Assembly: GCF_025397915.1 (NCBI RefSeq)
Contig: NZ_JALIDZ010000004.1
Coordinates: 372,001-436,000, forward strand
Direction of reading: 5' to 3'
Length of the DNA: 64,000 nt
Source of the DNA: Microbaculum marinisediminis
Lineage (GTDB): Bacteria > Pseudomonadota > Alphaproteobacteria > Rhizobiales > Tepidamorphaceae
Below are positions 27,069 through 46,876 of this stretch, piece by piece. The notes below the pieces were generated by a model. The model was not told where the DNA came from. It ran no database searches and worked only from the letters and a program-made list of their open reading frames with translations. Positions within the stretch are counted from its first letter, which is position 1. Each line of letters begins with the position of its first letter. A program made the position numbers and the translations under genes.

Positions 27069-27812
27069 TCATTCCTTCGATCCGGTTCTGCCGCCTCCCC
27101 AGATCATCTCCTCGAGGTCGACCAGCGCCTCGTCGAGCAGGTGCGTCATCGCCGCCCGGGCCGCGTCCGGCTTGCGCCTCTCGATCGCCGCGTAGACGGC
27201 GCGGTGCAGCGGCACGGAGGCCTGGCGTTTCGCAGGCTCCACGTTGACGATCGAGAAGCTGCGGGTCAGCGCCGGCTCGAGCAGATGGCCGAGCGATACG
27301 AGCAGCTCGTTGCGCGTCGCGATCAGCACGGCACGGTGAAACGCGAGATCCGGTGCAATCCAGCCTTCCAGCGACGTGGCGCTGGCCATGCCCTCGAGGC
27401 TGCGGTGCATGATGTCGAGGTCGTCCACGTCGCGGCGCGCGGCGGCCAGCGCGGCCGCGGCCGGCTCTATGATGTGGCGGAACTCGAAGAATGCCTGCGC
27501 GTAGGTGCGATCGGGCGCGGTGCCGAACGCCCAGGTGGTGACGTCGGGATCGAGCATGTTCCATTCGCTGCGCTGGCGCACGCGGGTGCCGGTCTTCGGC
27601 CGGGATTCGACCAGGCCCTTGCCGGCGAGCATCTTGATGGCTTCGCGAAAGGAGGTGCGGCTGACCGCCAGGCGGGCACTGTAGTCGCCTTCGGTCGGAA
27701 GCACGGAGCCGGGCGCGAACTCGCCGGCGACGATGCGGCGGCCGAGCTCGTCGACGATCTGGCCATGAACGCTACGCCGGGCCGTCGAAAGGGCCCGAGC
27801 CGGCTTGTTCAC
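27069..27812 (-). CDS. FadR-subfamily GntR transcriptional regulator
   Basis: 247 aa. The GntR winged helix is at about 12-80 (HGQIVDELGRRIVAGEFAPGSVLPTE, SRTSFREAIKMLAGKGLV, PKTGTRV, read as separate motifs), followed by an FCD effector domain at about 100-235 with metal-ligand residues in DLAFHRAVL and LHRAVYAAI. It resembles the galactonate regulator DgoR group. It is divergent from dgoK and upstream of the transporter operon, so it likely represses both until a sugar-acid ligand binds. Confidence 0.92.
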   Translation of the reverse strand: MNKPARALSTARRSVHGQIVDELGRRIVAGEFAPGSVLPTEGDYSARLAVSRTSFREAIKMLAGKGLVESRPKTGTRVRQRSEWNMLDPDVTTWAFGTAPDRTYAQAFFEFRHIIEPAAAALAAARRDVDDLDIMHRSLEGMASATSLEGWIAPDLAFHRAVLIATRNELLVSLGHLLEPALTRSFSIVNVEPAKRQASVPLHRAVYAAIERRKPDAARAAMTHLLDEALVDLEEMIWGGGRTGSKE

Positions 27813-27870
27813 GTGTATCCTCCCTCGCCGCCGGTTATGACGTATCCGTTGTTCGGATTGGCGGCTTCAT

Positions 27871-27881
27871 TTGTCGTACAA
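27871..27881. promoter_or_regulatory. FadR-type operator between gntR and dgoK
   Basis: TTGTCGTACAA fits the FadR-subfamily consensus TNGTNNNACNA exactly. It overlaps TACAAT (27877-27882), a plausible -10 element for dgoK, so binding would block transcription. Confidence 0.6.
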
Positions 27882-27923
27882 TAACACCAATGACCGGGAA
27901 GACGGCAAGAGGGGAGATGTGAC

Positions 27924-28841
27924 GTGACTCGAATCGAAGCGGTGCTGATCGACTGGGGGACGACCAACGTCCGCGCCTACGGGATCGGCGCGGATGGCGC
28001 GATTCTCGAGCGTCGTGTTTCGGCGCATGGCATCCGGAACGTTCCCGATCGGCAATTCGCCGCCGCTTTCGATGCTCTGGTCGGCGACTGGCGCGCAGGT
28101 GCGCCGGTACCCGTCCTGATGAGCGGCATGATCGGCAGCCGCCAGGGCTGGGCCGAAGCGCCCTACGTAGCCTGTCCGGCGGGCCTGGACGGTCTTGCGG
28201 ACGGTCTTTTGAGCGTTCCGGACCGGTCCGGCGTGCGGATCGTGCCCGGCGTCTGTCTCGGTGCGGCGGCCACCCGTCGCGACGTCATGCGCGGCGAGGA
28301 AGTGCAGTGTTTCGGCGCGCTGGCGACCGAACGGATTGCGGACGCGATACTCTGTCTGCCCGGCACCCACAGCAAATGGGTGCGGATGGAGGGGGGCAGG
28401 CTCGTCGATTTCGCCACTGCCATGACCGGCGAGGCCTACGAGGTGCTGCGTCGCCACTCGATCCTCTCCGCCCTGATGCGGGACGAGGAGACCGGCGCGA
28501 CCGGCGACAGCCGGTGGTTCGCCGCCGGCCTGGAGCGTTCGGGCGACCCGGGTGGCCTGCTGCACCATCTGTTCTCGGTTCGCGCCGACGGGCTGTTCGA
28601 GGTCGTGCCGGGCGAGGGACTTGCCGACTATCTGTCCGGAATCCTGATCGGGCACGAGATCCGGTCCATGGCCGGCCTGTTTCCGGCGCCGCGGCCCGTT
28701 CTGGTCGTCGGCGGCAGCGGACTGGCCGCCGCCTATCGTGCCGCCTTGTCCCATCTGGAGGTCGAGGCGCGTGCGATCGACGCCGAAAAAGCGACGACTT
28801 CCGGACTTTTCCGGATCCTTTCAAAGGGGCGGTCCATGTAG
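27924..28841 (+). CDS. dgoK: 2-dehydro-3-deoxygalactonokinase
   Basis: 305-aa kinase that phosphorylates 2-keto-3-deoxygalactonate at O6 with ATP, giving the substrate of the DgoA aldolase. It shows the N-terminal phosphate loop DWGTTNVRAY, LMSGMIGSRQGW, LPGTHSKWV and VVGGSGLAAAYRAAL, all DgoK signatures. GTG start at 27924 with GGGGAG 7 bases upstream. No dgoA aldolase follows in the window; the next gene begins a different operon. Confidence 0.95.
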   Translation: MTRIEAVLIDWGTTNVRAYGIGADGAILERRVSAHGIRNVPDRQFAAAFDALVGDWRAGAPVPVLMSGMIGSRQGWAEAPYVACPAGLDGLADGLLSVPDRSGVRIVPGVCLGAAATRRDVMRGEEVQCFGALATERIADAILCLPGTHSKWVRMEGGRLVDFATAMTGEAYEVLRRHSILSALMRDEETGATGDSRWFAAGLERSGDPGGLLHHLFSVRADGLFEVVPGEGLADYLSGILIGHEIRSMAGLFPAPRPVLVVGGSGLAAAYRAALSHLEVEARAIDAEKATTSGLFRILSKGRSM

Positions 28842-28889
28842 GATCGACCCGCGGAAATCCTGAGGCGGAGGGCAATCGCAACAGGATAC

Positions 28890-28918
28890 TTGCACCTTAA
28901 ATATTTCAAGCTTAAAGT
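28890..28918 (+). promoter_or_regulatory. Promoter and dyad operator of the anthraniloyl-CoA operon
   Basis: TTGCAC (28890-28895) and TAAAGT (28913-28918), 17 bases apart, form a likely promoter. The imperfect dyad TTTCAAGCTTAAAG (28904-28917) covers the spacer and the -10 region. Nearly the same 14-mer occurs at 44018-44031. A repressor bound here would block the promoter; the MarR protein encoded in the operon is the best candidate. Confidence 0.65.
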
Positions 28919-28973
28919 TATTGCCTATCGAGCCGCGGACACGTGCGCCGCGAACCAAACAGGGAGGGCCGTC

Positions 28974-31343
28974 ATGAAGGTGGCGATTGTCGGTGGTGGA
29001 CCAGCTGGTCTCTATTTCGCGATCCTGTTGAAGAAGTCCCGACCCGACTCCGACATAGCCGTCTACGAGCGCAACAAGCCGGACGACACCTTCGGATTCG
29101 GCGTGGTGTTCTCCGACGAGACGCTCGATACGTTCGAGAGCTGGGACAAGGAAAGCTACGAGCGCATCACCGAGGAATTCGCCTACTGGGACGATATCGA
29201 GATCAACTACAAGGGCGAGAAGCACCGCATCGGCGGCAACGGCTTCTGCGGCTGCTCGCGTGTGGCGCTGCTCAAGATCCTCTACGAGCGTGCCCGTGAT
29301 CTCGGCATTCCGCTGCATTTCGAGCACGAGGTGGAGCCGACCACCGATTTCTCCGATCACGATCTCGTGCTGCTGGCGGACGGCGTGAACAGCCGTTTCC
29401 GCGAGCACTTCGTCGACCACTTCAAGCCGCATGTCGACCTGAGGCCGAACAAGTTCGCCTGGATGGGATCGACCAAGCCGCTCGACGCCTTCACCTTCGC
29501 CTTCGAGGAGACCGAGTGGGGCATCTTCATCGCCCATGCCTACCAGTACGAGGAAGGCCGCTCGACCTGGATCTTCGAGACCGACGACGAGACCTGGGAA
29601 AAGGCCGGGCTGGCCGAGTTCGACGAGCAGCAGTCGGCCGATTTCTGCGCCAAGATCTTCGCCAAGCATCTCGATGGCTATCCGGTTCTGACCAACCGGT
29701 CGATGTGGCGCAACTTCCCGATGATCCGCAACGAGCGCTGGGTGAAGGACAACATGGTCCTGCTCGGCGACGCCAAGTCGACGGCGCATTACTCGATCGG
29801 CTCGGGCACCAAGCTCGCCATGGAAGACGCCATCGCCCTGTTCGAGGCGGTCGAGGCGACGCCGGACATCCCCGCGGCGCTGAAGCTGTTCGAATCCGGC
29901 CGCCGCGAGGGTGTTGAGAAGATCCAGCATGCCGCCGACGTGTCGCTCGTCTGGTTCGAGCATGTCGCCCGGTTCTGGGACTACGATCCGGTGCAGTTCA
30001 GCTTCGGCCTGATGACGCGCTCGAAGGCGATCACCTATGACAACCTGCGCATGCGCGCGCCGGAATTCGTCGACGCCGCCGACCGGATGTTCGCCGAGAA
30101 GGTCCGGCTGAAGGGCTTCGACGTCGACATCGACGATCCGGCGACGCCGGCGTTCCAGCCGTTCAAGCTGCGCGACATGGAGCTGAAGAACCGCCTCGTC
30201 ATGTCGCCGATGTGCATGTACTCGGCCACCGACGGCGTGCCCGACGACTTTCACCTGGTTCACTACGGCACCCGCGCCATGGGCGGCGCCGGCCTGATCT
30301 TCACCGAGATGACCTGCGTCGCGCCGGACGCGCGCATCACGCCCGGCTGCACCGGGCTGTGGAACGACGACCAGGAAGCGGCCTGGAAGCGTATCGTCGA
30401 ATTCGTTCGCGGCCACTCCAACGCCAAGTTCTGCCTGCAGCTCGGCCATGCCGGGCGCAAGGGCGCGACCAAGCTGATGTGGGAAGGCATGGACCGGCCG
30501 CTCGACGAGGACGCCTGGCCGGTCGTGTCGGCGTCGCCGATCGCCTACTATCCCGAGAGCCAGGTCCCGCAGGAGCTCACGCGCGCCGACATGGACCGGA
30601 TCCGGGATCAGTTCGTCGCCGCGGTCGAGCGGGCGGAACGGCTCGGCTTCGACATGATCGAGCTGCACTGTGCCCACGGCTATCTCCTGGCGAGCTTCCT
30701 GTCGCCGCTGACCAATACCCGCACCGACGAGTTCGGCGGGTCGGTCGAGAACCGGCTGCGCTTCCCGCTGGAGGTGTTCTCGGCGATGCGCGCGGCGTGG
30801 CCCAAGCACAAGCCGATGTCGGTGCGCGTTTCCGCCACCGACTGGGCCGAGGGCGGCCTGTCGGACGAGGATTCGGTGGCGATCGCCGAGGCCTTCGGCC
30901 AGGCCGGCGTCGATCTCGTCGACGTGTCGACGGGGCAGACGGTCAACTGGTCGTCTCCGATCTACGGGCGCATGTTCCAGACGCCGTATTCCGACCAGAT
31001 CCGCAACGAGGCCCAGGTGTCGACCATGTGCGTCGGCAACATCACCTCGGCCGATCAGGCCAACACGATCCTGGTCGCCGGTCGCGCCGATCTCGTCGCC
31101 ATCGGCCGTCCGCACCTGGTCGATCCGTTCTTCGCCGCGAACGCGGCGGCGTGGTACGGCGAGCCCTATCTGCAGACGGTGCCGCAGTACGAACCCGGCT
31201 TCGACCAGCTCGCCCGCAACAGCGCGCGCGACCGGATGGATCTGGAAGAGCTGCGGATCAAGGCCCGCCCGAAGACCCGGGCGCCCTCCGTCGAGGAGAA
31301 GCGGGTTCAGCAGAAGCCGTCGTTCATCCAGGCGGCGGAATGA
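28974..31343 (+). CDS. Bifunctional anthraniloyl-CoA/salicylyl-CoA monooxygenase-reductase
   Basis: 789-aa flavoprotein fusion. Residues 1 to about 380 form a class A FAD monooxygenase ([11 protein letters not shown] at 6-16, [26 protein letters not shown]). Residues about 395-770 form an Old-Yellow-Enzyme-type NADH:flavin reductase ([32 protein letters not shown]). This architecture is known for 2-aminobenzoyl-CoA monooxygenase/reductase, which hydroxylates and partly reduces the ring of anthraniloyl-CoA, and for proteins annotated as salicylyl-CoA 5-hydroxylase. The ligase and RidA neighbours favour anthraniloyl-CoA. ATG 28974 has AGGGAGG upstream. Confidence 0.92.
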
Positions 31344-31350
31344 GCCGGCC

Positions 31351-32115
31351 ATGAAGGGACTGAGCGGACGGCATGCCCTGGTCACCGGCGGTGGACGCGG
31401 TATCGGGGCGGCGGTCGCCTCGGCGCTGACGGCCGCCGGCGCGCGGGTCACCGTCACCGGCCGCAAGGACGCTCCGCTCAAGGAGCTAGTCGAGGCCGGC
31501 GGCGCGGCGGGCTATGCGATCGCGGACGTGACCGACCCGCTGGCGCTCGGGGAGGCCGTTAAGGAGGCCGTCGCCGAGCGCGGCCCGGTCGAGGTTCTCG
31601 TCGCCAATGCGGGCGCGGCCGAAACGGCCCTGTTCAGCCGGGCCGACCCGGCCGTCTTCCAGCGCATGTTCGACGTCAACACGATGGGTGTCGTCCATTC
31701 GGTGCAGTCCGTGCTGGGTCCGATGACCGAGGCCGGTTTCGGTCGCATCGTCGCCGTCGCGTCCACCGCCGGGCTGAAGGGCTACCGCTACACGTCGGCC
31801 TACTGCGCGGCGAAGCACGCGGTGATCGGGCTGGTGCGGTCGCTGGCGCTGGAGACGGCGCGCAGCGGCATCACCGTGAACGCGGTCTGCCCGGGCTTCA
31901 CCGATACCGACATGGTCGCGGAGTCGGTCTCACGGATCGTCGCCAAGACAGGCATGACCGCCGAGCAGGCCGAGGCGGAACTCGTCCGCGACAATCCGCA
32001 GGGGCGTCTCGTGACGCCCGAGGAAGTCGCCGACGCCGTGCTGTGGTTGTGCGGGGCCGATGCCGCATCCATAACCGGTCAGGCGATCGCGGTCGCCGGC
32101 GGGGAGGTGATGTGA
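31351..32115 (+). CDS. SDR-family 3-hydroxyacyl-CoA dehydrogenase-like protein
   Basis: 254-aa classical SDR: TGGGRGIG at 12-19, NAG at 86-88, catalytic S138, Y151 and K155. It starts 7 bases after the monooxygenase-reductase gene. In comparable CoA-thioester aromatic pathways, an SDR oxidises a hydroxyl formed during ring opening or beta-oxidation; that is the likely role here, by context. Its stop codon overlaps the next start (TGATG). Confidence 0.88.
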   Translation: MKGLSGRHALVTGGGRGIGAAVASALTAAGARVTVTGRKDAPLKELVEAGGAAGYAIADVTDPLALGEAVKEAVAERGPVEVLVANAGAAETALFSRADPAVFQRMFDVNTMGVVHSVQSVLGPMTEAGFGRIVAVASTAGLKGYRYTSAYCAAKHAVIGLVRSLALETARSGITVNAVCPGFTDTDMVAESVSRIVAKTGMTAEQAEAELVRDNPQGRLVTPEEVADAVLWLCGADAASITGQAIAVAGGEVM

Positions 32116-32624
32116 TGAACGACATACCGCTCGATGCGGAAACCATGGCGCTGGAGGCGCCGGGCGACCACAAGTCCGACATCCGGCTGTGGCTGCGCCT
32201 ACTGACCTGCACGACGCTGATCGAGGGCGAGATCCGCCGGCGGCTGCGCGAGCAGTTCGACGTGACGCTGCCGCGTTTCGACCTGATGGCGCAGCTCGAC
32301 AAGGCGCCGGAAGGCATGACGCTCGGCGAGGTTTCCAAGCGCATGATGGTCTCCAATGGCAACGTCACCCACGTGGTGGAGAAGCTGGTCGCTTCCGGTC
32401 ACATCGACCGGCGGCCGGCGACGCATGACCGGCGCGTGCAGATCATCTCGCTGACGCCGACCGGAGCGGCCGAGTTCCGGGCGATGGCAAAGATTCACGA
32501 AGACTGGGTCGCCGACATGTTCGCCGACCTCGACGAACAGGAGGAAGCCGCACTCATGGCGCTGCTGGGCAAGACGAAAATATCGGTGAGGACGGCTCTC
32601 GAAGCCCGGGAGGAGCGCTCGTGA
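32115..32624 (+). CDS. MarR-family transcriptional regulator
   Basis: 169-aa winged-helix regulator. Core: [26 protein letters not shown] and [21 protein letters not shown] with the wing [13 protein letters not shown] (read as separate motifs). Such regulators commonly sense an aryl-CoA thioester or phenolic ligand. GGGGAGG lies upstream of ATG 32115, which overlaps the SDR stop. Being inside the catabolic operon, it is the prime candidate for binding the dyads at 28904 and 44018. Confidence 0.92.
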
Positions 32625-33457
32625 CCTGGCAGACCGCCAACGTTCCGGTGCCGCTTTCCAAGTACGAGGCGAAGCACTTCAAGCTCGAGATCGACGGCAA
32701 GGTCGCGACCATCACGCTGAACCGGCCCGAGCGCAAGAACCCGCTCACCTTCGATTCCTATTCCGAACTGGGTCACTTCTTCCGCGCGGCCGCGGACGAC
32801 GAGGACATCAAGGCCTTCGTCGTCACCGGTGCGGGCGGCAATTTCTCGTCGGGCGGCGACGTGTTCGAGATCATCGGCCCGCTCGTCGAAATGGATACCG
32901 CAGGGCTGATGCGCTTCACCCGGATGACCGGTGAACTGGTCAAGGCGATGCGGGCCTGCCCGCAGCCGATCATCGCCGCGGTCGACGGCATCTGCGCCGG
33001 CGCCGGCGCGATCGTGGCCATGTCCTCCGACATCCGCTACGGCACGCCGGAATCCAAGGTCCTGTTCCTGTTCAACAAGGTCGGCCTTGCCGGCTGCGAC
33101 ATGGGCGCCTGTGCGATCCTGCCGCGAATTATCGGTCAGGGGCGTGCCTCCGAGCTGCTCTTCACCGGCCGGCCGCTACGCGGCGAGGAGGCCGAGCGCT
33201 GGGGCTTCTACAACCGGCTTGTCCCGGGCGACGCGGTGCTGGCCGAGGCGCAGGCCTTCGCCAGAGATCTGGCCGACGGGCCGACCTTCGGCAACGCCAT
33301 GACCAAGCGCATGCTGCAGATGGAATGGGCCATGTCCGTCGAGGAGGCCGTCGAGGCCGAGGCGGTCGCCCAGGCGCTGTGCATGACGACGGAAGACTTC
33401 GCCCGGGCCTATCGCGCATTCGCGGCCAAGGAAACGCCGAAGTTCGAGGGGAACTAG
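32621..33457 (+). CDS. Enoyl-CoA hydratase/isomerase-family protein
   Basis: 278-aa crotonase-fold protein. The two oxyanion-hole segments are [14 protein letters not shown] and [15 protein letters not shown]. The usual second glutamate position lies in [12 protein letters not shown], so the acid-base residues differ from simple hydratases. GTG start overlaps the MarR stop (GTGA), implying coupling. It likely hydrates or opens a ring-derived CoA intermediate in the anthranilate route. Confidence 0.9.
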
Positions 33458-33460
33458 GGG

Positions 33461-34648
33461 ATGGCCGACAAAACCTTCCTCGACTGGCCGTTCTTCGAAG
33501 AGAAGCACCGCCGCTTCGCCGCCGAGATCGGCGCCTGGGCGGAGGCGACGCTGGCGCCCCTGATCGATCATCATGACGTCGACGCCTCGTGCCGCAAAAT
33601 CGTCGCGGCGCTTGGCGAGGGTGGCTTCCTCGACGCGGCGGCGCCGACCGAGGAAGGCGACCGGCACGACGTGCGCACGCTGTGCATCGCGCGCGAGACC
33701 CTCGGCTATCAGTCCGGCCTCGCCGACTTCGCCTTCGCGATGCAGGGGCTCGGCTCCGGGCCGGTGGTCGTTGCCGGCAGCGCCGAGCAGAAGGCTAAGT
33801 GGCTGCCGGGCGTCGCGGCGGGCACCGCGATCCCCGCCTTCGCCCTTTCGGAGCCCGACGCAGGGTCCGACGTGGCCGCGATGTCGACGACGGCGACGCC
33901 CGACGGCAACGATCACGTCCGTCTCGACGGCTGCAAGACCTGGATTTCCAACGGCGGCATCGCCGACTGGTACGTGGTTTTCGCCCGTTCCGGCGAGGCA
34001 CCCGGCGCCAGGGGACTGTCGGCCTATATCGTCGAGGCCGGCACCCCGGGCTTCGAGATCGCGGAACGCATCGACGTGATCGCGCCGCATCCGCTGGCGA
34101 CGCTGTCCTTCGAGGGCTGCCGCGTGCCGGTCGCCAACCGCATCGGCAATGGTGGCGATGGCTTCAAGGTCGCGATGTCGACGCTCGATATCTTCCGCTC
34201 TACCGTTGGGGCGGCGGCGTTGGGATTTGCCCGCCGGGCCCTTGATGAGGGCGTGAACCGGGCGCGCGAGCGCTCGATGTTCGGTGCGCCGCTCGCGGAC
34301 CTGCAGCTCACCCAGGCCGGCCTCGCCGACATGGCGACGGGCGTCGATGCCGCCGCGCTGCTGATCTACCGGTCCGCGTGGACCAAGGACAACGGCGCGC
34401 CGCGCGTCACCCGCGAGGCCTCGATGGCGAAGATGTTCGCCACCGAGACGGCGCAACAGGTGATCGACCGGGCCGTGCAGATCTTCGGCGGGCTTGGCGT
34501 CAAGAGCGGCGTCAAGGTCGAGGAGCTCTACCGCGAGATCCGGGCATTGCGGATCTACGAGGGCGCCACCGAGGTACAGAAGATCGTCATCGCGCGCGAA
34601 CTGCTCAAGGCCGCCGAGGTCAAGGCCGACGGCGCGGCGGCGCGGTGA
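33461..34648 (+). CDS. Acyl-CoA dehydrogenase-family protein
   Basis: 395-aa flavoenzyme with the three-part fold: helical N-domain, beta middle domain ([23 protein letters not shown]) and helical C-domain ([15 protein letters not shown]). The catalytic base is E367 in [10 protein letters not shown], the usual C-terminal position. Starts 3 bases after the hydratase gene. It would introduce an alpha-beta double bond in a CoA ester after ring reduction or opening; electrons would pass to electron-transfer flavoprotein. Confidence 0.93.
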
Positions 34649-34714
34649 AGACAGAACAATAGGCAAAACCGCGGGTCGGGATAAACCGGCCCCGTATTGG
34701 CCGGAGGAGAAAGC

Positions 34715-36367
34715 ATGCTGAGAAGCGGACACGTGGATTCGTTCGCGCGGGACAATCTGCCCCCGCAGGAACAGTGGCCGGAATTCAAGTTCACCCTGCC
34801 GGAGCTGCAGTATCCGGAACGGCTCAACTGCGCTGTCGAACTGCTCGACAAGTGGGTGGACGAGGGCAAGGGTGACCGGACCTGCCTGATCTCGCCGACC
34901 GAGACACTGACCTATGCCGAGCTGCAGGCGCGGGTGAACCGCATCGCCAACGTGCTGACCAGGCGGCTCGGCATGGTGCCCGGCGGGCGGGTGCTTCTGC
35001 GGTCGGCCAACACCCCGATGATGGTCGCCGCCTATTTTGCGGTGCTGAAGGCCGGCGGCGTCGTCGTCGCCACCATGCCGCTTCTGCGGGCCAAGGAACT
35101 CGCCTATCCGATCCAGAAGGCGAAGATCGATCTCGCGCTCTGCGACGTCCGTCTCGCCGAGGAGATGGAGAAGGCCAAGACGCAGGCGCCGGAACTGCAA
35201 CGCATCGTCTACTGGGGCGGCGGCGACGACACGCTCGAGGCGATGATGGCCGACGAGCCGGACACGTTCGAGGCCTGCGACACGGCGAGCGACGACGTCT
35301 GCCTGATCGGCTTCACCTCGGGCACCACCGGCGTGCCGAAGGGCACGATGCATTTCCATCGCGACATGATGGCGATCTGCGACGCCTACGCGATGAATGT
35401 GCTCAGGCCCATCGAGAGCGACCGCTTCATCGGCTCGCCGCCGCTGGCCTTCACCTTCGGCCTCGGCGGCCTGGTGCTGTTCCCGATGCGGGTCGGGGCC
35501 TCTACGGTGCTGCTCGAAGCGGCCCCGCCGGACAAGCTGCTGGCAGCGATCCGGGAGTTCAAGGCGACCGTGTCGTTCACCGCGCCGACCGCCTACCGCG
35601 CCATGGTCGACATGCTGCAGCCCGGCGACGTCGACAGCCTGCGCAAATGCGTGTCGGCCGGCGAGGCGTTGCCGAAGGCAACCTGGGATGCCTGGCACGA
35701 GGCGACCGGGATGACGCTTCTCGACGGCATCGGCGCGACCGAGCTTCTGCACATCTTCATCGGCTCGCCGGAAGAAGAGGTGCGGCCCGGCGCGACCGGC
35801 AAGCCGGTGCCGGGCTACGAGGCCAAGGTCATCGGCGACGACGGCAACACGCTGCCGGCGGGCCAGATCGGGCGTCTCGCGGTGCGCGGTCCCACGGGCT
35901 GCCGCTATATCGCCGACGAGCGCCAGACCGACTACGTCGTCGACGGCTGGAACGTCACCGGCGACACCTACCTGATGGATGAGGACGGCTACTTCTGGTA
36001 CCAGGCGCGCTCCGACGACATGATCGTATCGTCGGGCTATAACATCGCCGGACCGGAAGTGGAAGGCGCGCTGCTGACCCACCCGGCCGTCGCCTTCTGC
36101 GGCGTCGTCGGGTCGCCCGACCGCGAGCGCGGCCAGATCGTCAAGGCCTACATCCAGCTCAAGGACGGCTATACCGGTTCCCCCGAACTCGCAGTCGAAC
36201 TTCAGACACATGTGAAGAACGAGGTCGCGCCGTACAAGTATCCGCGCGCGATCGCCTTCGTCGACGCCTTGCCGCGCACCGAGACCGGCAAGTTGAAACG
36301 CGTCACCCTGCGCGAGATCGCCAGGGCGGAGGCCGCCGAGAGCGTATCGCAATCCAAGGCCGGTTGA
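34715..36367 (+). CDS. Benzoate/2-aminobenzoate-CoA ligase-family protein
   Basis: 550-aa adenylate-forming ligase (ANL superfamily). The P-loop TSGTTGVPKGTMHFH starts at 201, the GATELLHIFIG motif follows near 345, and the C-terminal catalytic lysine is K526 in TGKLKRV. It resembles benzoate-CoA ligases, whose subgroup includes 2-aminobenzoate-CoA ligases; it would activate the aromatic acid with ATP and CoA as the first step of the operon's pathway. GGAGGAG precedes ATG 34715; the first residues of the frame before it are excluded. Confidence 0.92.
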   Translation: MLRSGHVDSFARDNLPPQEQWPEFKFTLPELQYPERLNCAVELLDKWVDEGKGDRTCLISPTETLTYAELQARVNRIANVLTRRLGMVPGGRVLLRSANTPMMVAAYFAVLKAGGVVVATMPLLRAKELAYPIQKAKIDLALCDVRLAEEMEKAKTQAPELQRIVYWGGGDDTLEAMMADEPDTFEACDTASDDVCLIGFTSGTTGVPKGTMHFHRDMMAICDAYAMNVLRPIESDRFIGSPPLAFTFGLGGLVLFPMRVGASTVLLEAAPPDKLLAAIREFKATVSFTAPTAYRAMVDMLQPGDVDSLRKCVSAGEALPKATWDAWHEATGMTLLDGIGATELLHIFIGSPEEEVRPGATGKPVPGYEAKVIGDDGNTLPAGQIGRLAVRGPTGCRYIADERQTDYVVDGWNVTGDTYLMDEDGYFWYQARSDDMIVSSGYNIAGPEVEGALLTHPAVAFCGVVGSPDRERGQIVKAYIQLKDGYTGSPELAVELQTHVKNEVAPYKYPRAIAFVDALPRTETGKLKRVTLREIARAEAAESVSQSKAG

Positions 36368-36403
36368 GGCCAAGTGCACGATGATATCAAGGAGGTATCC
36401 CCT

Positions 36404-36844
36404 GTGTCTGTGACGAGCCTGCCCGCGGCAGCGGATGAGAACGATCGGCCGGAAACCCTGCTGCCCGCCGGTTGGCCGCGGCCAAAGGGCTATTCCAACG
36501 GCATGAAGGCGACCGGTACGGTCGTCGTCACCGGCGGCGTCGTCGGCTGGGACGCGAACGAGCAGTTCCCCGACACCTTCGGCGCGCAGATTCGCCAGAC
36601 CCTGTCGAACATCCGGGAAATCCTGGCGGCCGGCGGTGCGCATCCGCGCCATCTCGTCCGGCTCACCTGGTATGTCACAGACCTCGACGCCTACCGCGCC
36701 AATCTCAAGGAGGTCGGTCGCGCCTATCGCGACGAGATCGGGCCGTATTTCCCGGCGATGGCGGTGGTGCAGGTCGTCGGCCTCGTCGAGCCGAAGGCGA
36801 TGATCGAGATCGAGGCCACCGCGGTCGTCCCGACGGACGCCTGA
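36404..36844 (+). CDS. RidA-family (enamine/imine deaminase-type) protein
   Basis: 146 aa from GTG 36404, chosen because a near-perfect Shine-Dalgarno AAGGAGGT (36389-36396) lies 7 bases upstream; the longer frame from 36374 has none. Family features: GWPRPKGYSNGM, TGGVVGWD, and the C-terminal MAVVQVVGLVEPKAMIEIEATAV (two halves). Classical RidA hydrolyses reactive enamines; the usual catalytic Arg region of RidA (NP-R) is altered here. Similar proteins are found in 2-aminobenzoate gene clusters, where one may release the ring nitrogen as ammonia. Confidence 0.88.
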   Translation: MSVTSLPAAADENDRPETLLPAGWPRPKGYSNGMKATGTVVVTGGVVGWDANEQFPDTFGAQIRQTLSNIREILAAGGAHPRHLVRLTWYVTDLDAYRANLKEVGRAYRDEIGPYFPAMAVVQVVGLVEPKAMIEIEATAVVPTDA

Positions 36845-41004: not shown

Positions 41005-42720
41005 CTACTTCACCGTGTTGTTGACCGCGAGCGCCCAGACGTCGTTCAAGCGCCCGTCGAGGACCGCCTTCACGCCATACATCGCCGTGGAGACGGCCTG
41101 TCCCACCTCGACGGTGGGCGGCATCACCAGCTCCATGCGGTTGACGACGACGTCGAGCAGGGCCGGGCCGTCTTGGCTCAGCCACTCGGTCATTGCCGGC
41201 TCCAGGTCGTCCGCGTTCTCGACGCGCCGGCCGTAGAAGCCGCAGGCCTTGGCGAGAGCGGAGAAATCCGGGTTGTGCAGGTCGGTGAAGGCGTCGAGCA
41301 TGCCCTCGACCTTCATCTCCATCTCGACAAAGCCGAGAGAGCCGTTGTTGAAGACCACCAGCTTCACCGGCAGTTTCTCCTGGACGAGCGTCAGGAGGTC
41401 GCCCATCAGCATGGTCATGCCGCCGTCGCCGCACATGGCCACGACCTGGCGGCCGGGATGCGATTTCTGACAGCCGATCGCCATCGGATAGGAGTTCGCC
41501 ATGGTGCCGTGCAGCAGGCTCGTCAGGAAACGGCGTTTTCCGTTGGCGTGCAGGTAGCGCAGCATCCACACGAAGGTGGTGCCGCCTTCGGAGGTGAAGA
41601 TCGCGTCGTCGTCGGCGAGCTCGTTCAGCTTGGTGGCGACATATTGCGGGTGGATGAGACCGGGCGAGCGCTCTCTGGCCTGCTCCTCGAGTGTCTTCTG
41701 GCTCTTCTCGTGTTCCTTCAGGCTCGCCGCGAGGAAGGCGTCGTCGGAGCGCTCGTCGAGAAGTGGCAGCAGCGCCGCTATGGTGGCGTTCACGTCGCCA
41801 ACGAGGCCGAGCGTCACGGGCGTCCGCCGGCCGATATGGGCGGGATCGATGTCGATCTGCACGATCTTGGCGCGTCTCGGATAGAACTGGGGCCAGGCGA
41901 AATCGGTGCCCAGGCACAGAAGCAGGTCGCAATGCTCGACGGCCTCGAAACCGGATTTCGTGCCGATCAGCCCTGTCATCGAGACGTTGTAGGGATTGTC
42001 GTGCTCGAGGAATTCCTTGGCGCGCGAGGTGTGGGCGACCGGCGCCTTCAGCTTGGCCGCCAGCGCCACGACCGCGTCGTGGGCGTGCCGGCACCCGATG
42101 CCGCCATAGATCGTAATCTTGTTCGCCGTGTTGACGAGATCAGCAAGCTGCGCCAGCTCGTCGTCGTTCGGGCGGATGACGGGGCTGGGCCGGGACACCG
42201 TCCAGTGGGTCTCGTCCTTGGTCCGCTCCTTGGTCATGTCGCCGTTGACGATGATGACCGCGACGCCGCGCTTGGTCAGTGCGGCCTGGGCGGCCTGCAC
42301 CGTGATCCGGCGGGCCTGGTCGGGGTGGGAGATGTATTCGCAGAACACCGAATACTGCTCGTAGATCTTCTTCTGGTCGACGTCCTGCGGGAAGGCCAGA
42401 CCGGACTGGATGCGGTCGATCTGCGAGGCGATCATCACCACCGGCGCCCCGTTGCGGTGGCTTTCGAACAGGCCGTTGACGAAATGCAGGCTGCCCGGCC
42501 CGGCGGAACCGGCGCAGACCGCGAGTTCGTCGGTCATGAAGGCGTCGGCACCGGCGGCGAAGCCCGCGACCTCCTCATGGCGGACGTGGATCCATTCCAT
42601 GCCCTTGCGACGGATCGCGTCGGTGACGAAATTGAGCGTGTCGCCGACGATGCCGTAGCAGCGCTTGGCGCCGGCTTCCATCAGGGCTTCGACGATGACA
42701 TCGGCTACGAGCTTGGACAT
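41005..42720 (-). CDS. poxB: Thiamine-diphosphate enzyme, pyruvate dehydrogenase (quinone)/PoxB-like
   Basis: 571-aa ThDP enzyme matching PoxB length. Activating glutamate region RHEEVAGFAAGADAFMTDE, ELAVCAGSAGPGSLHFVNGL and the C-terminal ThDP motif CGDGGMTMLMGDLL with VFNNGSLGFVEMEM are PoxB-like. PoxB oxidises pyruvate to acetate and CO2 using FAD and a membrane quinone; the acs gene at 57.5 kb could reclaim that acetate. A related acetolactate-synthase-like role cannot be fully excluded. No promoter feature was singled out. Confidence 0.85.
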   Translation of the reverse strand: MSKLVADVIVEALMEAGAKRCYGIVGDTLNFVTDAIRRKGMEWIHVRHEEVAGFAAGADAFMTDELAVCAGSAGPGSLHFVNGLFESHRNGAPVVMIASQIDRIQSGLAFPQDVDQKKIYEQYSVFCEYISHPDQARRITVQAAQAALTKRGVAVIIVNGDMTKERTKDETHWTVSRPSPVIRPNDDELAQLADLVNTANKITIYGGIGCRHAHDAVVALAAKLKAPVAHTSRAKEFLEHDNPYNVSMTGLIGTKSGFEAVEHCDLLLCLGTDFAWPQFYPRRAKIVQIDIDPAHIGRRTPVTLGLVGDVNATIAALLPLLDERSDDAFLAASLKEHEKSQKTLEEQARERSPGLIHPQYVATKLNELADDDAIFTSEGGTTFVWMLRYLHANGKRRFLTSLLHGTMANSYPMAIGCQKSHPGRQVVAMCGDGGMTMLMGDLLTLVQEKLPVKLVVFNNGSLGFVEMEMKVEGMLDAFTDLHNPDFSALAKACGFYGRRVENADDLEPAMTEWLSQDGPALLDVVVNRMELVMPPTVEVGQAVSTAMYGVKAVLDGRLNDVWALAVNNTVK

Positions 42721-42864: not shown

Positions 42865-43932
42865 TCAGGAACTCCGGGCGGTCCGACGCGGAGACTCGCC
42901 AAAGCGCTGGCGGTAGTATTGCGCGAACCGGCCGAGATGGGCAAAGCCCCATCGCGCGGCGACGGCCGAAACGCTCGCCTCGTCCTCGGCAAGCCGGAGG
43001 GCGAGGCGGCAGCGATCGAGCCGCTCGTCGCGAAGGACCTGTATCGGCGTCATGCCGAGGAACTGCTTGAAGCCGTATTGCAGGGTGCGGCCGGCGACGC
43101 CGCTGGCGCGCGCGATCTCGGCGCTGGTCAGCGGCCTGTCGGCATTGGCCCGGATATACTCGAGCGCCGTCTTCACGTAGCGCGGCAACGGCCCCGATCC
43201 GCAGGCCTCGGCGAAATGCGAGTGGGAGTTCGCCTGGACCTCGACCAGTTCGCGCAGCAGCTCGGCGCCGTAGAAATCGACGCGGTCCTTCGCGTCGACG
43301 TCCGAGCCGCTTTTCTCGACGCAGCGCATGAAGGCGACGACGTGGCGCAGCCATGCGGCGGCTTCGGGGCGCGTCAGCGCCATCGCCGCGTCGAAGGTCA
43401 GGGGCGTGTCGATGCCGCGGCCGAAATAGTCGGCCGCGACGGACTCCAGGACCGAGCGGGCGACCTGGACCTGCAGCTTCCGGCAGCCGGCCCACCAGCG
43501 CATCGCGGTATAGCGGTTCGGGTTGAGGATCGACGCTTGGCGGGAATCGGCGATGAACGCCCGGCGGCCGGTCTGGATCGAAGCCGCGCCGGCCAGCGGG
43601 ATCTGGATCAGGTAGAAGGTGTCGAGCTCGCCGGGCTCGATCTCCACGTCTGCGCCGTAGCCGATGTAGCTGAGCGACAGAAGGCCGGTGTCCACGTGGT
43701 TCTGAACCGTGCGGAAGCGGCCGCGCTCGCCGGTGATCTTCAGCCGATGCGGACAGAACACGCGCGCGACCTGCTCGCGGGCCTCGTCGAGATCCGCGGT
43801 TCGGAACAGATTGTAGCGGGCCAGCGGCTCGGGCACTGCCTGTAGGGCCACGTACGTCCTCCCGACGACGCGGTGTTGCCGGTGGTTTCCTTCGAGGGCG
43901 GCGGCTCTATTGCGGACCGGGCCGGCGGTCAA
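42865..43932 (-). CDS. AraC-family transcriptional regulator
   Basis: 355 aa. The C-terminal AraC/XylS DNA-binding region (about 245-350) shows both helix-turn-helix motifs: TSAEIARASGVAGRTLQYGFKQ, in two halves, with MTPIQVLRDERL, and VSAVAARWGFAHLGRFAQYYRQRFGESP (in two halves). The N-terminal half is an AraC-binding-like ligand domain. It is divergent from the SDR/indole-monooxygenase operon, like the AraC-type IifR of known indole clusters. The start may be shorter; a GTG exists near residue 28. Confidence 0.88.
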   Translation of the reverse strand: MTAGPVRNRAAALEGNHRQHRVVGRTYVALQAVPEPLARYNLFRTADLDEAREQVARVFCPHRLKITGERGRFRTVQNHVDTGLLSLSYIGYGADVEIEPGELDTFYLIQIPLAGAASIQTGRRAFIADSRQASILNPNRYTAMRWWAGCRKLQVQVARSVLESVAADYFGRGIDTPLTFDAAMALTRPEAAAWLRHVVAFMRCVEKSGSDVDAKDRVDFYGAELLRELVEVQANSHSHFAEACGSGPLPRYVKTALEYIRANADRPLTSAEIARASGVAGRTLQYGFKQFLGMTPIQVLRDERLDRCRLALRLAEDEASVSAVAARWGFAHLGRFAQYYRQRFGESPRRTARSS

Positions 43933-44017
43933 TGGCCGGCCGATCGGTTTGTTGCGTTTTCTGGATAGTCGCCGCGCCTGCCGGCTTTCCTTCGTCGCCT
44001 TTCCAATGATTGTTTTA

Positions 44018-44031
44018 TTTCAAGCATAAAG
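44018..44031. promoter_or_regulatory. Dyad operator upstream of the SDR/indole monooxygenase operon
   Basis: TTTCAAGCATAAAG differs at one base from TTTCAAGCTTAAAG at 28904-28917, and flanking AT and T bases also match. It includes TAAAGT, a possible -10 element, and lies 18 bases before the SDR start. Shared control with the anthraniloyl-CoA operon is inferred. Confidence 0.65.
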
Positions 44032-44049
44032 TAACGGGAAGGACAACGC

Positions 44050-44835
44050 ATGCCGGATTTCAACGGTAAGGTGGCGATCGTCACCGGCGGCGCGACGCTG
44101 ATCGGCGAGGCCGTGGCAAAGGCGTTCGCCGACAAGGGCGCCAAGGTCGTGATCGCAGATATCAACGAAGAGGGCGGCAAGGCGGTCGCCGATCGCGTCG
44201 GCGCCAATGCCGGCTTCCACAAGACCGATCTGCGCCAGGACGCCGACATCCGGGACCTGGTCGACACCACCGCCAAGACGCACGGTCGCATCGACTTTCT
44301 GGTCAACGTCGCCTGCACCTATCTGGACAACGGCGCCGATTCGACCCGGGCCGAGTGGCTCGAGGCCTTCGACACCAACGTCGTCGGCTCGGTGATGCTG
44401 ATGCAGGCGGCGCGCCCGCACCTGGCCAAGACCAGGGGGGCGATCGTCAACTTCGGCTCGATCTCCTCGCGCGTGGCCCAGACCGGGCGCTGGCTCTATC
44501 CGGTCTCCAAGGCGGCGATTCTGCAGCTCACCCGCAACCAGGCGATGGATCTCGCCCCGGACGGCATTCGCGTCAATGCGGTGTCGCCGGGCTGGACCTG
44601 GAGCGCGCTCATGGTCGAGCTCACCAAGAACAACCGGGAGAAGACGGACTCGGTGGCCGCGCCCTTCCATCTCGCCGGCCGTGTCGGCGACGCGGAGGAG
44701 GTGGCGAACGCGGTCGTGTTCCTGTGCTCCGACGAGGCGTCCTTCATCAACGGCACGGATATCCGCGTCGACGGCGGCTACACGGCGATGGGGCCGGAGC
44801 GGGCCGATGCGGCGATTCCGCTGCTGATGGACTGA
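44050..44835 (+). CDS. SDR-family oxidoreductase with atypical NNAG motif
   Basis: 261-aa SDR: TGGATLIG at 12-19 in place of the usual TGxxxGIG, catalytic S137/S139, Y150 and K154 retained, but NNAG is replaced by NVAC at 86-89. GGAAGGA precedes the ATG. It is followed 23 bases later by a StyA/indole monooxygenase-like gene; in known indole (iif) clusters, the SDR IifB oxidises indole-2,3-dihydrodiol. The same role is inferred here; substrate unproven. Confidence 0.85.
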   Translation: MPDFNGKVAIVTGGATLIGEAVAKAFADKGAKVVIADINEEGGKAVADRVGANAGFHKTDLRQDADIRDLVDTTAKTHGRIDFLVNVACTYLDNGADSTRAEWLEAFDTNVVGSVMLMQAARPHLAKTRGAIVNFGSISSRVAQTGRWLYPVSKAAILQLTRNQAMDLAPDGIRVNAVSPGWTWSALMVELTKNNREKTDSVAAPFHLAGRVGDAEEVANAVVFLCSDEASFINGTDIRVDGGYTAMGPERADAAIPLLMD

Positions 44836-44858
44836 GACAAGAACCAGGAGGAAAAAAG

Positions 44859-46097
44859 ATGGCAAAACGCAGTGTGACCATCGTCGGTGGCGGCCAGTCC
44901 GGCCTGCAGCTGGCGCTCGGACTTCTGAAGGACGGCGGCTACGACGTGCGTGTGGTGCAGAACCGCACCGCCGAGGAGATCGCCACAGGCCGGGTGACGT
45001 CGAGCCAGTGCATGTTCGACCAGGCGCTGCAGAACGAGCGCGACATCGGCATCAATTTCTGGGAAGGCGAATGCCCGACGGTCGATTCGATCAACTTCAC
45101 CGTGCCGGCGCCGGATGCGCCGGGCGTCAAGGCGATCGACTGGAACGGCAAGCTCGACCGCTACGCCCAGAGCGTCGACCAGCGGGTGAAGTTCCCCGGC
45201 TGGATGAAGGCGTTCGAGGAGCGTGGCGGCACGCTGGACATCCACGACGCGACCGTCCAGGACCTCGAGCGCTATGCGAACGAGAGCGACCTGGTTGTGG
45301 TCGCCGCCGGCAAGGGCGAGATCGCCGGAATGTTCCAGCGCGATGACGAAAAGTCTGTGTTCGACAAGCCGCAGCGCGCGCTGGCGCTGACCTATGTCAC
45401 CGGCATGGTGCCGCGCTCGCCGCACTCGGGGGTGTGCTTCAACCTGATCCCGACCGTCGGCGAGTATTTCGTGTTCCCGGCGCTGACGACGACGGGGCCG
45501 TGCGAGATCATGGTGTTCGAGGGCATTCCCGGCGGACCGATGGACTGCTGGGGCGAGGTCAAGACACCCGAGCAACATCTCGAGAAATCGAAATGGATTC
45601 TCGACACCTTCCTGCCGTGGGAGGCGGAGCGCTGCCGCGATATCGCGCTGACCGACGACAACGGCGTGCTCGCCGGCCGCTTCCCGCCGACCGTGCGCCA
45701 TCCCAACGGCCGGCTGCCGTCGGGCAAGGCGGTGCTCGGCATGGGCGACGTCGTGGTCCTCAACGACCCGGTTACCGGCCAGGGCTCCAACAATGCGTCG
45801 AAGTGCGCGAGGGTCTACATGGATTCGATCCTGGCGCGCGGCGGCGAGGCGTTCGACGAGGCCTGGATGCAGGGGACCTTCGATGCCTACTGGAACTACG
45901 CCCAGTATGTCGCCGGCTGGACCAATGCGCTCCTGCGGCCGCCGCCGCCGCACGTGCTGAACATCATGGGCGCGGCGCAGCAGTTCCCGGTGCTCGCCAA
46001 GCGGATCGCCAATGGCTTCGATGATCCGACGGACTTCTTCCCCTGGTTCGCCGTTCCGGAGGAAGCCGACGCCTATCTGAAGCAGCTGGCGGCCTAG
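44859..46097 (+). CDS. Styrene/indole monooxygenase-family FAD protein (StyA/IifC-like)
   Basis: 412-aa group E flavoprotein monooxygenase, the size of StyA. Rossmann FAD motif VGGGQSGLQLA at 9-19, LVVVAAGKGEIAGMF, FDKPQRALALTYV and NDPVTGQGSNNASKCARVYMDSIL (two halves) near residue 300 align with StyA landmarks. Group E enzymes need a separate flavin reductase (StyB/IifD) and epoxidise styrene or indole; no reductase gene follows here. AGGAGG lies 7 bases before ATG 44859. Context with anthranilate degradation suggests indole as substrate. Confidence 0.88.
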   Translation: MAKRSVTIVGGGQSGLQLALGLLKDGGYDVRVVQNRTAEEIATGRVTSSQCMFDQALQNERDIGINFWEGECPTVDSINFTVPAPDAPGVKAIDWNGKLDRYAQSVDQRVKFPGWMKAFEERGGTLDIHDATVQDLERYANESDLVVVAAGKGEIAGMFQRDDEKSVFDKPQRALALTYVTGMVPRSPHSGVCFNLIPTVGEYFVFPALTTTGPCEIMVFEGIPGGPMDCWGEVKTPEQHLEKSKWILDTFLPWEAERCRDIALTDDNGVLAGRFPPTVRHPNGRLPSGKAVLGMGDVVVLNDPVTGQGSNNASKCARVYMDSILARGGEAFDEAWMQGTFDAYWNYAQYVAGWTNALLRPPPPHVLNIMGAAQQFPVLAKRIANGFDDPTDFFPWFAVPEEADAYLKQLAA

Positions 46098-46213
46098 CAG
46101 CCCACGTTGCCGATCCGGGAAACGGGTCCCCTCGCGCCGTTGCTGTCCCACGGGACGGCGCGGGGGAGCGGCGAACCGTCCGATTGTCCGACGGATCTCG
46201 CTTCGCGCAGCCG

Positions 46214-46876
46214 CTACCGCACCATGCCGTGGAAGAAGAAGACGCCGAGGCCGGTCGTGAACACGATCTGGCCGGCGAGCGCATGCATGAGCCAGGCGAA
46301 CAGGAACGAGCCCTTCTCGCGATAGGCCCAGGCGAAGACCACGCCGCCGAACAGGGTCAGGATGACCGCCGGCCAGTTCCAGTAGAACAGGTGGGCAAGC
46401 GAGAACACGCCGGCATTGGCCGCGATCGCCACGTGCCGTCCCGGGAACAGGGCTCCGTACCGGCCGAAGAACAGCGCCCGGAACACGATTTCCTGCGGCA
46501 GCGCCGAGACGAACGGATAGAAGATCAGGATCAGGATCCACAGCCGCTCGTTGTGAAGTGGCAGCATGAACAGCGCGTTGGGTCTCAGCCACAGGACGAG
46601 GGCGAGGGCGACCGCGACCGTCAGCACGACGAAACCCGCCAGGACGGTCCAATCGGTAACGACCGGCCGCGCCAGCAGCGACCGCCACGAGAACCCGATC
46701 GATCGCGACAGCAGGATCACCGCGAGGATCAGCATGCCCGCCAATCCCGTCCAGATCACGCTTGGGGGCAGGCCGAGCGCCATGATCAGGGGCGTGGCCA
46801 CGAAGATGAGACCGAATTCGGCCCACAGGCGCGGAAGAGACGCCGCCGTTGCGGCCGATGATCGGGAAATGCTCAT
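46214..46876 (-). CDS. CPBP-family intramembrane glutamic endopeptidase
   Basis: 220-aa integral membrane protein with about 6-8 helices. The CPBP/ABI motifs are PQEIVFRALFFGRYG (motif 1, here QE rather than EE, then R), FSLAHLFYW (motif 2) and FAWLMHALAGQ (motif 4). Relatives process prenylated or bacteriocin-related substrates or act as scaffolds; the substrate here is unknown. The single-residue change in the EE pair may alter activity. Confidence 0.85.
   Translation of the reverse strand: MSISRSSAATAASLPRLWAEFGLIFVATPLIMALGLPPSVIWTGLAGMLILAVILLSRSIGFSWRSLLARPVVTDWTVLAGFVVLTVAVALALVLWLRPNALFMLPLHNERLWILILIFYPFVSALPQEIVFRALFFGRYGALFPGRHVAIAANAGVFSLAHLFYWNWPAVILTLFGGVVFAWAYREKGSFLFAWLMHALAGQIVFTTGLGVFFFHGMVR

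Follow-up and report, generated by a model that had tools for sequence, protein, structure and literature searches.

A putative AraC-controlled upper indole operon in Microbaculum marinisediminis and its proposed isatin route into a 2-aminobenzoyl-CoA operon

We analyzed a 64,000-nucleotide stretch (hereafter the window) of the genome of the alphaproteobacterium Microbaculum marinisediminis (GCF_025397915.1; contig NZ_JALIDZ010000004.1, positions 372,001 to 436,000), in which positions 42865-46097 carry a gene for an AraC-family regulator that is divergent from the genes for a short-chain dehydrogenase/reductase (SDR) and a StyA-like flavoprotein, here called IndA. An initial annotation, made on the window alone, had described this arrangement, and its coordinates and gene kinds are correct. 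It had also placed an anthraniloyl-CoA-type operon nearby; this lower operon indeed occupies 28890-36844 on the forward strand, ends 6.0 kb from the AraC gene, and includes a gene of the 2-aminobenzoyl-CoA monooxygenase/reductase (ACMR) type. The genome searched is a 5.1-Mb draft, with the window lying on its 559-kb contig G000:C4.

Several lines of evidence suggest that IndA is very probably an indole monooxygenase. It contains a Smoa_sbd domain (2.8e-44) and matches PDB entry 7z4x, which we take to be VpIndA1, with 619 bits, as against 119 bits for StyA (3ihm); likewise, it stays below the NCBIfam StyA equivalog cut-off (207 of 550 bits). Its reading frame is open upstream of 44859, and the list of open reading frames (ORFs) therefore starts it at 44355. 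The fingerprint reported for indole monooxygenases, S46-Q48-M50-V/I73-I76-A96 (PMC13101512), is present in the window protein at all six positions and is also complete in VpIndA1 and in the Acinetobacter and Burkholderia cluster proteins. The numbering is anchored on the start of StyA, whose six residues are those that passages of PMC13101512 give for the styrene enzymes. Among 86 related stretches of the fetched loci the fingerprint is complete in 74, and eight more deviate only by G at 96. In a midpoint-rooted tree of 45 rows, which has no true StyA among them, IndA falls within a 43-row clade (100/99) that also holds VpIndA1 and both IifC proteins, and two StyA-family rows without the fingerprint fall outside it. 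The initial annotation's choice of indole as the substrate thus stands as the best call on the strength of fingerprint, tree, and PDB relatives, and the phylogeny that it had proposed as a check places the enzyme with the indole clade of VpIndA1 and IifC and not with a non-indole one. The nearest IndA proteins, at 89% identity, are those of two genomes of the same genus, G001 and G002, which together with the window genome made up our same-genus comparison. G002 also encodes a second StyA-family paralogue (L033:6721-8151; 39%) that lacks the indole fingerprint and adjoins an AraC-like gene. On an Agrobacterium vitis plasmid (L041), a StyA-family protein and a flavin reductase are encoded amid nucleoside-hydrolase and dihydropyrimidinase genes, and another substrate is likely there.

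The SDR is, with high probability, IifB-like: it shares 56-71% identity with the SDR of each of five named indole clusters (56% with that of Acinetobacter, 60% with that of Burkholderia), passes NCBIfam PRK08265 (394.6 bits, cut-off 294), and has the YxxxK motif. The AraC protein shows 35-40% identity to the regulators of the Acinetobacter, Burkholderia, Azospirillum, Alloyangia, and Variovorax indole clusters (35-36% for the first two) and 78% and 60% to its counterparts in the two same-genus genomes; at 189 bits it falls short of the NCBIfam AndR cut-off of 350. The probable operator half-site TGCG-N6-GGATA sits inside an intergenic block kept in all three same-genus genomes, and resembles the XylS/BenR box. 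Of 74 AraC/operon intergenic regions, 21 contain the pattern TGC[A/G]-N6-GG-N-TA, whereas 200 simple shuffles gave 0.45 on average and never more than 3; its single match in the window, where 1.64 are expected by chance, is unremarkable by itself. The half-site was not found in the 290 bases upstream of the ACMR gene. The further claim of an operator shared with the anthraniloyl-CoA operon had to be given up for the stretches compared: between the AraC/SDR intergenic region and 28700-28900, 27800-27935, and 32100-32650, the best 18-base ungapped likeness amounts to 13, 13, and 14 matches, which is at the level of shuffled sequence (means 12.8, 12.6, and 13.6; 40 shuffles each).

The flavin reductase (IifD) that serves such oxygenases had been noted as missing from the window, and so it is: there is none after IndA, and a gene for a CAAX-type protease follows after just 116 bases. 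In G001 (L019) the order is AraC, SDR, IndA, flavin reductase (4459-4962), and CAAX protease; G002 likewise has a reductase gene adjoining IndA, such that of the three same-genus genomes only that of the window lacks it. We further scanned named genomes for IndA relatives and kept the best 80 of 570 (hereafter the named loci), which are mostly from alphaproteobacteria, with some from Actinomycetota, Variovorax, and Arhodomonas; 31 fall below 20 kb in length, and two, L060 and L061, share one contig. In 74 of them a flavin reductase is encoded within about 1.8 kb of IndA, and five of the other six are loci below 20 kb. Given that same-genus loci carry the reductase before the same CAAX protease, and that 74 of the named loci have one, the cluster reductase has almost certainly been lost locally in this lineage. 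A search of the genome for IifD, as had been suggested, accordingly yields none in the cluster but five other flavin reductases (PF01613 proteins) elsewhere. Among them, the enzyme encoded on contig C5 beside the luciferase-like gene comes closest to the cluster reductases of G001, G002, G090, and G017 (36-42%), but is only 30% identical to those of Alloyangia and Azospirillum. Another, on contig C7 (at about 163.6 kb), is 54% identical to the Azospirillum cluster reductase; it has a C-terminal HpaR-like stretch, and its best model is the p-hydroxyphenylacetate hydroxylase reductase, with 228 of 340 bits and hence below the cut-off. We did not choose it as the counterpart of IifD, although it may be one.

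A full-length IifA of the Acinetobacter type was likewise not found in the window genome when searched for as the initial annotation had advised. The query was Acinetobacter L038:4819-6087, taken as IifA by its position and its 64% match to a Burkholderia cluster gene, and it produced two partial matches; the better one, in a 236-residue frame, covers residues 5-214 of 422 (roughly half the query length) at 39% identity. Only two of the named loci have IifA within reach of IndA, both titled Rhodococcus. In Providencia, GS-A has been reported as a cyclase-family protein (PMC9871250).

Contig C5 of the same genome instead carries an isatin hydrolase module (L027) and a luciferase-like module (L031). 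The isatin hydrolase matches PDB 4j0n (isatin hydrolase B) with 407 bits, and the HxxxHxD metal motif, with ligands taken from PMC6117287, is kept in it and in 37 of 37 relatives. Beside it, at 294799-298527 of the contig, are encoded the two subunits of a 2-oxoacid oxidoreductase resembling indolepyruvate oxidoreductase: the alpha subunit stays below TIGR03336, the indolepyruvate ferredoxin oxidoreductase alpha model (277 of 650.9 bits), and keeps its C-terminal cysteines; the beta subunit passes the family model NF006179 (683 vs 348 bits). The luciferase-like monooxygenase is 77% identical to its Kaistia relative, and stays below the cut-offs for RutA (TIGR03612; 164 of 498 bits) and SfnG (188 of 383 bits) at 28-31% identity. 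All of its 38 relatives keep the equivalents of RutA Thr105, Asn134, and Trp139, whose roles are described in PMC10005588. The first three genes of this module have relatives that adjoin indole operons and ACMR genes in other alphaproteobacteria.

Indeed, such linkages recur. With an AraC relative in 71 and an SDR in 77 of the named loci, the AraC/SDR/IndA arrangement is far above chance, and in 44 of the 80, including those of Rhizobiaceae, Kaistia, and Rhodobacteraceae, no more than 10 kb separates IndA from at least one of the isatin module, the luciferase-like gene, and ACMR. Taken singly, the luciferase-like gene lies within that distance in 22 loci, each time with a MarR-like gene, and ACMR in 15; within reach of IndA are also an indolepyruvate-oxidoreductase-like gene (22 loci), the ABC binding protein of the isatin module (20), and isatin hydrolase or its relatives (19). 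A 21-kb stretch of a Rhizobium metagenome-assembled genome (L073) combines an AraC/reductase/SDR/IndA cluster with ACMR and members of all modules, namely the luciferase-like gene with its reductase, isatin hydrolase with CrtO-like enzymes, the oxidoreductase alpha subunit, and transporter genes; the order is similar in the Kaistia loci L069 and L075 and in genome G292. In L074 and L076, ACMR lies 0.2 kb downstream of IndA on the same strand, and on an Alloyangia pacifica plasmid the indole operon and its reductase gene adjoin ACMR, with one short opposite-strand gene between. The tie between an indole operon and a 2-aminobenzoyl-CoA monooxygenase operon, which the initial annotation had drawn from their nearness in the window, is thus found again elsewhere.

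The same genes co-occur across the order: at an E-value limit of 1e-100, the 397 genomes searched include eight with IndA, 18 with the luciferase-like gene, and 123 with ACMR; the Fisher p values that follow treat genomes as independent and ignore their kinship. The luciferase-like gene is found in seven of the eight IndA genomes (p = 8.5e-10), and when the genus of the window is left out it is still found in 5/5 as against 16/394 (p = 5.7e-8). ACMR is present in all 18 luciferase-like genomes (p = 2.8e-10) and all eight IndA genomes (p = 7.2e-5). Isatin hydrolase, searched for in 80 selected genomes (limit 1e-60), occurs in 8/8 IndA genomes, 18/18 luciferase-like genomes, and 9/30 with ACMR only (four of these at just 51-56% identity), and in none of 31 sampled genomes that lack IndA, the luciferase-like gene, and ACMR. 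It lies at most 20 kb from ACMR in 15 of the 28 genomes that have it, and the oxidoreductase adjoins it in 17 of 20 fetched same-order stretches. This nesting, with ACMR the most widespread, followed by isatin hydrolase, the luciferase-like gene, and IndA, is the pattern expected of a pathway with optional upstream entries.

The remaining genes of the lower operon are listed in Table 1 along with the other features. Its ACMR passes PRK08255 (1123 bits, cut-off 1078), a model that cannot separate aminobenzoyl-CoA from salicylyl-CoA enzymes; many genomes of the order encode relatives of this ACMR at 64% or above. The 6.0 kb that separate the lower operon from the AraC gene encode a transporter, an antiporter, and a PoxB-like thiamine pyrophosphate (TPP) enzyme, all unrelated. 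The TPP enzyme (41005-42720), which adjoins the AraC gene and reaches 720 bits against the ubiquinone-dependent pyruvate dehydrogenase cut-off of 792, was considered as an isatinate decarboxylase; no relative (40% over 350 residues) occurs in the named loci, and we treat it as a chance neighbor. Just upstream of ACMR, 27069-28841 hold a GntR regulator gene divergent from one for 2-keto-3-deoxygalactonokinase; with the galactarate/altronate dehydratase and transporter further upstream, this looks like a sugar-acid cluster outside the anthraniloyl-CoA operon. Downstream of ACMR in L069 and L070, genes for a thioesterase, a RidA-like protein, a cupin, an SDR, and (in L070) an FAA hydrolase replace the enoyl-CoA hydratase/acyl-CoA dehydrogenase type of the window.

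Table 1. Features of the two operons in the window and of the two modules on contig C5 of the same genome
Feature	Position	Strand	Basis
AraC/XylS-family regulator, IifR-like; start codon uncertain	42865..43932	-	Pfam AraC_binding_2 and HTH_18
Probable AraC operator half-site, TGCG-N6-GGATA	43953..43967	+	Conserved block, motif enrichment
SDR, IifB-like; proposed indole-2,3-dihydrodiol dehydrogenase	44050..44835	+	Homology, PRK08265, YxxxK
IndA, group E flavoprotein of probable indole monooxygenase type (412 residues)	44859..46097	+	PDB match, fingerprint, tree
Short spacer (116 bp); site of the reductase in same-genus genomes	46098..46213	.	Alignment with L019
CAAX-type protease, synteny marker	46214..46876	-	Pfam Rce1-like; 83% to the post-reductase gene of L019
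ACMR, 2-aminobenzoyl-CoA monooxygenase/reductase type	28890..31343	+	NCBIfam PRK08255, salicylyl-CoA 5-hydroxylase model
SDR of the lower operon	31351..32115	+	48% to Alloyangia
MarR regulator; start uncertain, overlaps the preceding gene as drawn	32043..32624	+	Pfam MarR; 40% to Alloyangia MarR
Enoyl-CoA hydratase	32621..33457	+	NCBIfam PRK08258 (460 bits, cut-off 330)
Acyl-CoA dehydrogenase	33461..34648	+	Pfam
Benzoate-CoA ligase family; candidate anthranilate-CoA ligase	34697..36367	+	TIGR02262 (384 bits, cut-off 375)
RidA-family protein; candidate enamine/imine deaminase	36374..36844	+	Pfam Ribonuc_L-PSP; 52% to the RidA of the Alloyangia operon
Isatin module (L027): peptide-type ABC transporter, CrtO-like, isatin hydrolase, CrtO-like, MarR, oxidoreductase pair	G000:C5 286476-298527		
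Luciferase-like module (L031): MarR, luciferase-like monooxygenase, flavin reductase, OYE (old yellow enzyme)-type enzyme	G000:C5 83229-86758		

We posit, with moderate confidence, that 42865-46097 hold an upper operon for indole, made up of two genes under AraC control, which feeds an isatin route into the lower operon. IndA, given FADH2 by a reductase encoded elsewhere, would, judging from its family, epoxidize indole at C2-C3, and the SDR, by analogy with IifB, would oxidize the dihydrodiol to 3-hydroxyindolin-2-one. This could be turned into isatin by a CrtO-like FAD enzyme or by autoxidation, and isatin into isatinate by the isatin hydrolase, a step suggested by strong homology. The indolepyruvate-oxidoreductase-like pair might then convert isatinate to 2-aminobenzoyl-CoA; alternatively, the luciferase-like monooxygenase might convert isatinate to anthranilate, to be followed by a CoA ligase. 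In either case, ACMR and the lower operon (28890-36844) would open the ring. As IifA was not found, the isatin branch is the likeliest replacement for it, and we regard this part as fairly probable. The presence of isatin hydrolase and the oxidoreductase-like pair in its stead implies that the intermediate may be isatin or isatinate, and that free anthranilate may be bypassed. The route from indole to anthranilate, anthraniloyl-CoA, and ring opening outlined in the initial annotation is hence retained at its indole start and in its link to ACMR, and not in its IifA-type middle part, the reductase being lost and IifA not found.

No benzoate-CoA-ligase relative (38% over 350 residues) is present in the 15 ACMR-linked named loci, which, isatinate being a 2-oxo acid, favors direct formation of the CoA ester. 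Conversely, in G246 and G395, in the Rhodococcus IndA loci L120 and L122, and in the operon of the window itself, ligase relatives do accompany these genes, which favors free anthranilate there. No oxidoreductase is encoded beside isatin hydrolase in G006, G017, and G090, where a genome-wide search was not made, and G017 and G090 are two of the eight IndA genomes. On account of these two genomes and of the ligase relatives in G246 and G395, action of the oxidoreductase pair on isatinate can be put forward only tentatively. Formation of anthranilate by the luciferase-like enzyme appears doubtful. A broader version, which we consider rather unlikely, would have indole degraded without free anthranilate in many alphaproteobacteria, with isatin hydrolase opening isatin and the oxidoreductase-like pair oxidatively decarboxylating isatinate to 2-aminobenzoyl-CoA for ACMR, the role of iadA/iadB thereby explained, and the luciferase-like enzyme performing a further new step on an oxindole-type intermediate. 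In searches of mostly open-access literature, no article combining isatin, indole, and a luciferase-like monooxygenase was found, and among the matches listed no title or abstract opening states the proposed isatinate step.

Other observations also weigh against the proposed scheme. Thirty-six of the named loci have neither a module nor IifA within reach, and 15 of these are at least 20 kb long. The ACMR of the window is 49% identical to that of Alloyangia, whereas the island-linked ones are 52-54% identical to it; G002 carries ACMR and IndA on separate contigs and (at 86% completeness) has no luciferase-like match. The proximity of the two operons in the window is thus weak evidence alone, and the argument rests on recurrent linkage elsewhere. 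Moreover, 11 of the 18 luciferase-like genomes lack IndA, which implies that the modules also serve something besides indole, perhaps indoleacetate or isatin itself. On a rival view, the isatin, oxidoreductase, and luciferase-like modules are part of an iad-type breakdown of indoleacetate or isatin and share ACMR only by chance with the indole operon, which for its part would serve detoxification by forming indigo or isatin. Consistent with it, auxin iad loci include oxidoreductase alpha/beta homologues, and the Variovorax iad pathway is reported to pass through isatin and isatinic acid (PMC9613470). We think it improbable, given that the modules or ACMR adjoin the indole operon in those 44 named loci, that isatin hydrolase accompanies IndA in all eight IndA genomes, and that no Rieske gene is present among the 10 ORFs annotated beside the module of the window genome, a genome-wide search not having been made.

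About as improbable, in our estimate, is a course closer to the canonical one, in which 3-hydroxyindolin-2-one would yield free anthranilate through the RutA-like luciferase-family monooxygenase and its own reductase in place of IifA, by oxygenolytic lactam opening or oxidative decarboxylation, followed by the ligase encoded at 34697-36367. The frequency of the luciferase-like gene in IndA genomes and near IndA, its RutA-type residues, the cleavage of the uracil amide reported for RutA (PMC7662398), and the ligase genes of the window, G246, and G395 would all fit. Yet isatin hydrolase, needless in such a course, is present in all 18 luciferase-like genomes, and the enzyme scores below threshold against RutA and SfnG. 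Finally, without a reductase of its own the operon could be decaying. That it is a relic, or acts on another substrate such as skatole or aryl sulfides, its dedicated reductase being gone, would agree with the window genome being the only one of the three same-genus genomes without the reductase next to IndA and with the sulfoxidation reported for related group E enzymes (PMC6017014). We nevertheless hold this to be quite improbable: the SDR and IndA frames are both open, the operator block is conserved, any of the five other flavin reductases could serve, and the indole fingerprint is complete, whereas passages of PMC13101512 report skatole enzymes without it.

Returning to the proposed isatin route, its wider interest lies in neighborhoods, mostly alphaproteobacterial, in which the indole monooxygenase gene is tied to those for isatin hydrolase, the 2-aminobenzoyl-CoA monooxygenase, and the two subunits of a 2-oxoacid oxidoreductase. 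Passages of a review (PMC6221969) leave unsettled whether indole degradation truly proceeds by way of isatin and what role isatin hydrolase has; with these neighborhoods, the isatin question can be put to a direct test in named strains of Kaistia, Rhizobium, or Gemmobacter. They also suggest a function for the oxidoreductase genes of auxin-degradation loci, such that iadA/iadB would gain a role if the proposal is true. There is room for one, as iad loci contain such oxidoreductase genes and the nine-gene region iadC-K2 of Variovorax is reported to restore anthranilate (PMC12633357).

Among characterized systems, the best structural relative of IndA is VpIndA1, with which it shares fingerprint and clade. 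The iif/ind clusters of Acinetobacter, Burkholderia, Cupriavidus, and Providencia, to which the initial annotation had matched the locus, share with it the AraC regulator, the SDR, and the StyA-like monooxygenase, and the same first two steps are expected. They differ from it in that the window operon has no flavin reductase and its genome no detectable full-length IifA, with an isatin hydrolase module instead; the reported iif route runs through IifC/D, IifB, and IifA (PMC6221969). The match hence holds for the three shared genes and fails for the cluster reductase and IifA: on sequence grounds the operon is iif-like but incomplete as an iif cluster, and its predicted function is that of the upper iif steps. 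For Cupriavidus sp. SHE, indole oxidation linked to a 2-aminobenzoyl-CoA gene cluster has already been reported (PMC6221969); there the reported link is anthranilate, while here isatin hydrolase and the 2-oxoacid oxidoreductase suggest another. The luciferase-like enzyme has in common with RutA and SfnG the fold family and the flavin reductase partner, and with RutA the pocket residues, and is set apart from them by its low identity, its sub-threshold scores, and its linkage to indole and anthraniloyl-CoA genes. The iad auxin loci of Variovorax and Bradyrhizobium resemble the present genes in isatin/isatinic acid, in the MarR regulator, and in the indolepyruvate-oxidoreductase-like alpha/beta genes; their first step is that of a Rieske oxygenase on indoleacetate, whereas here a flavoprotein is predicted to act on indole and ACMR is linked.

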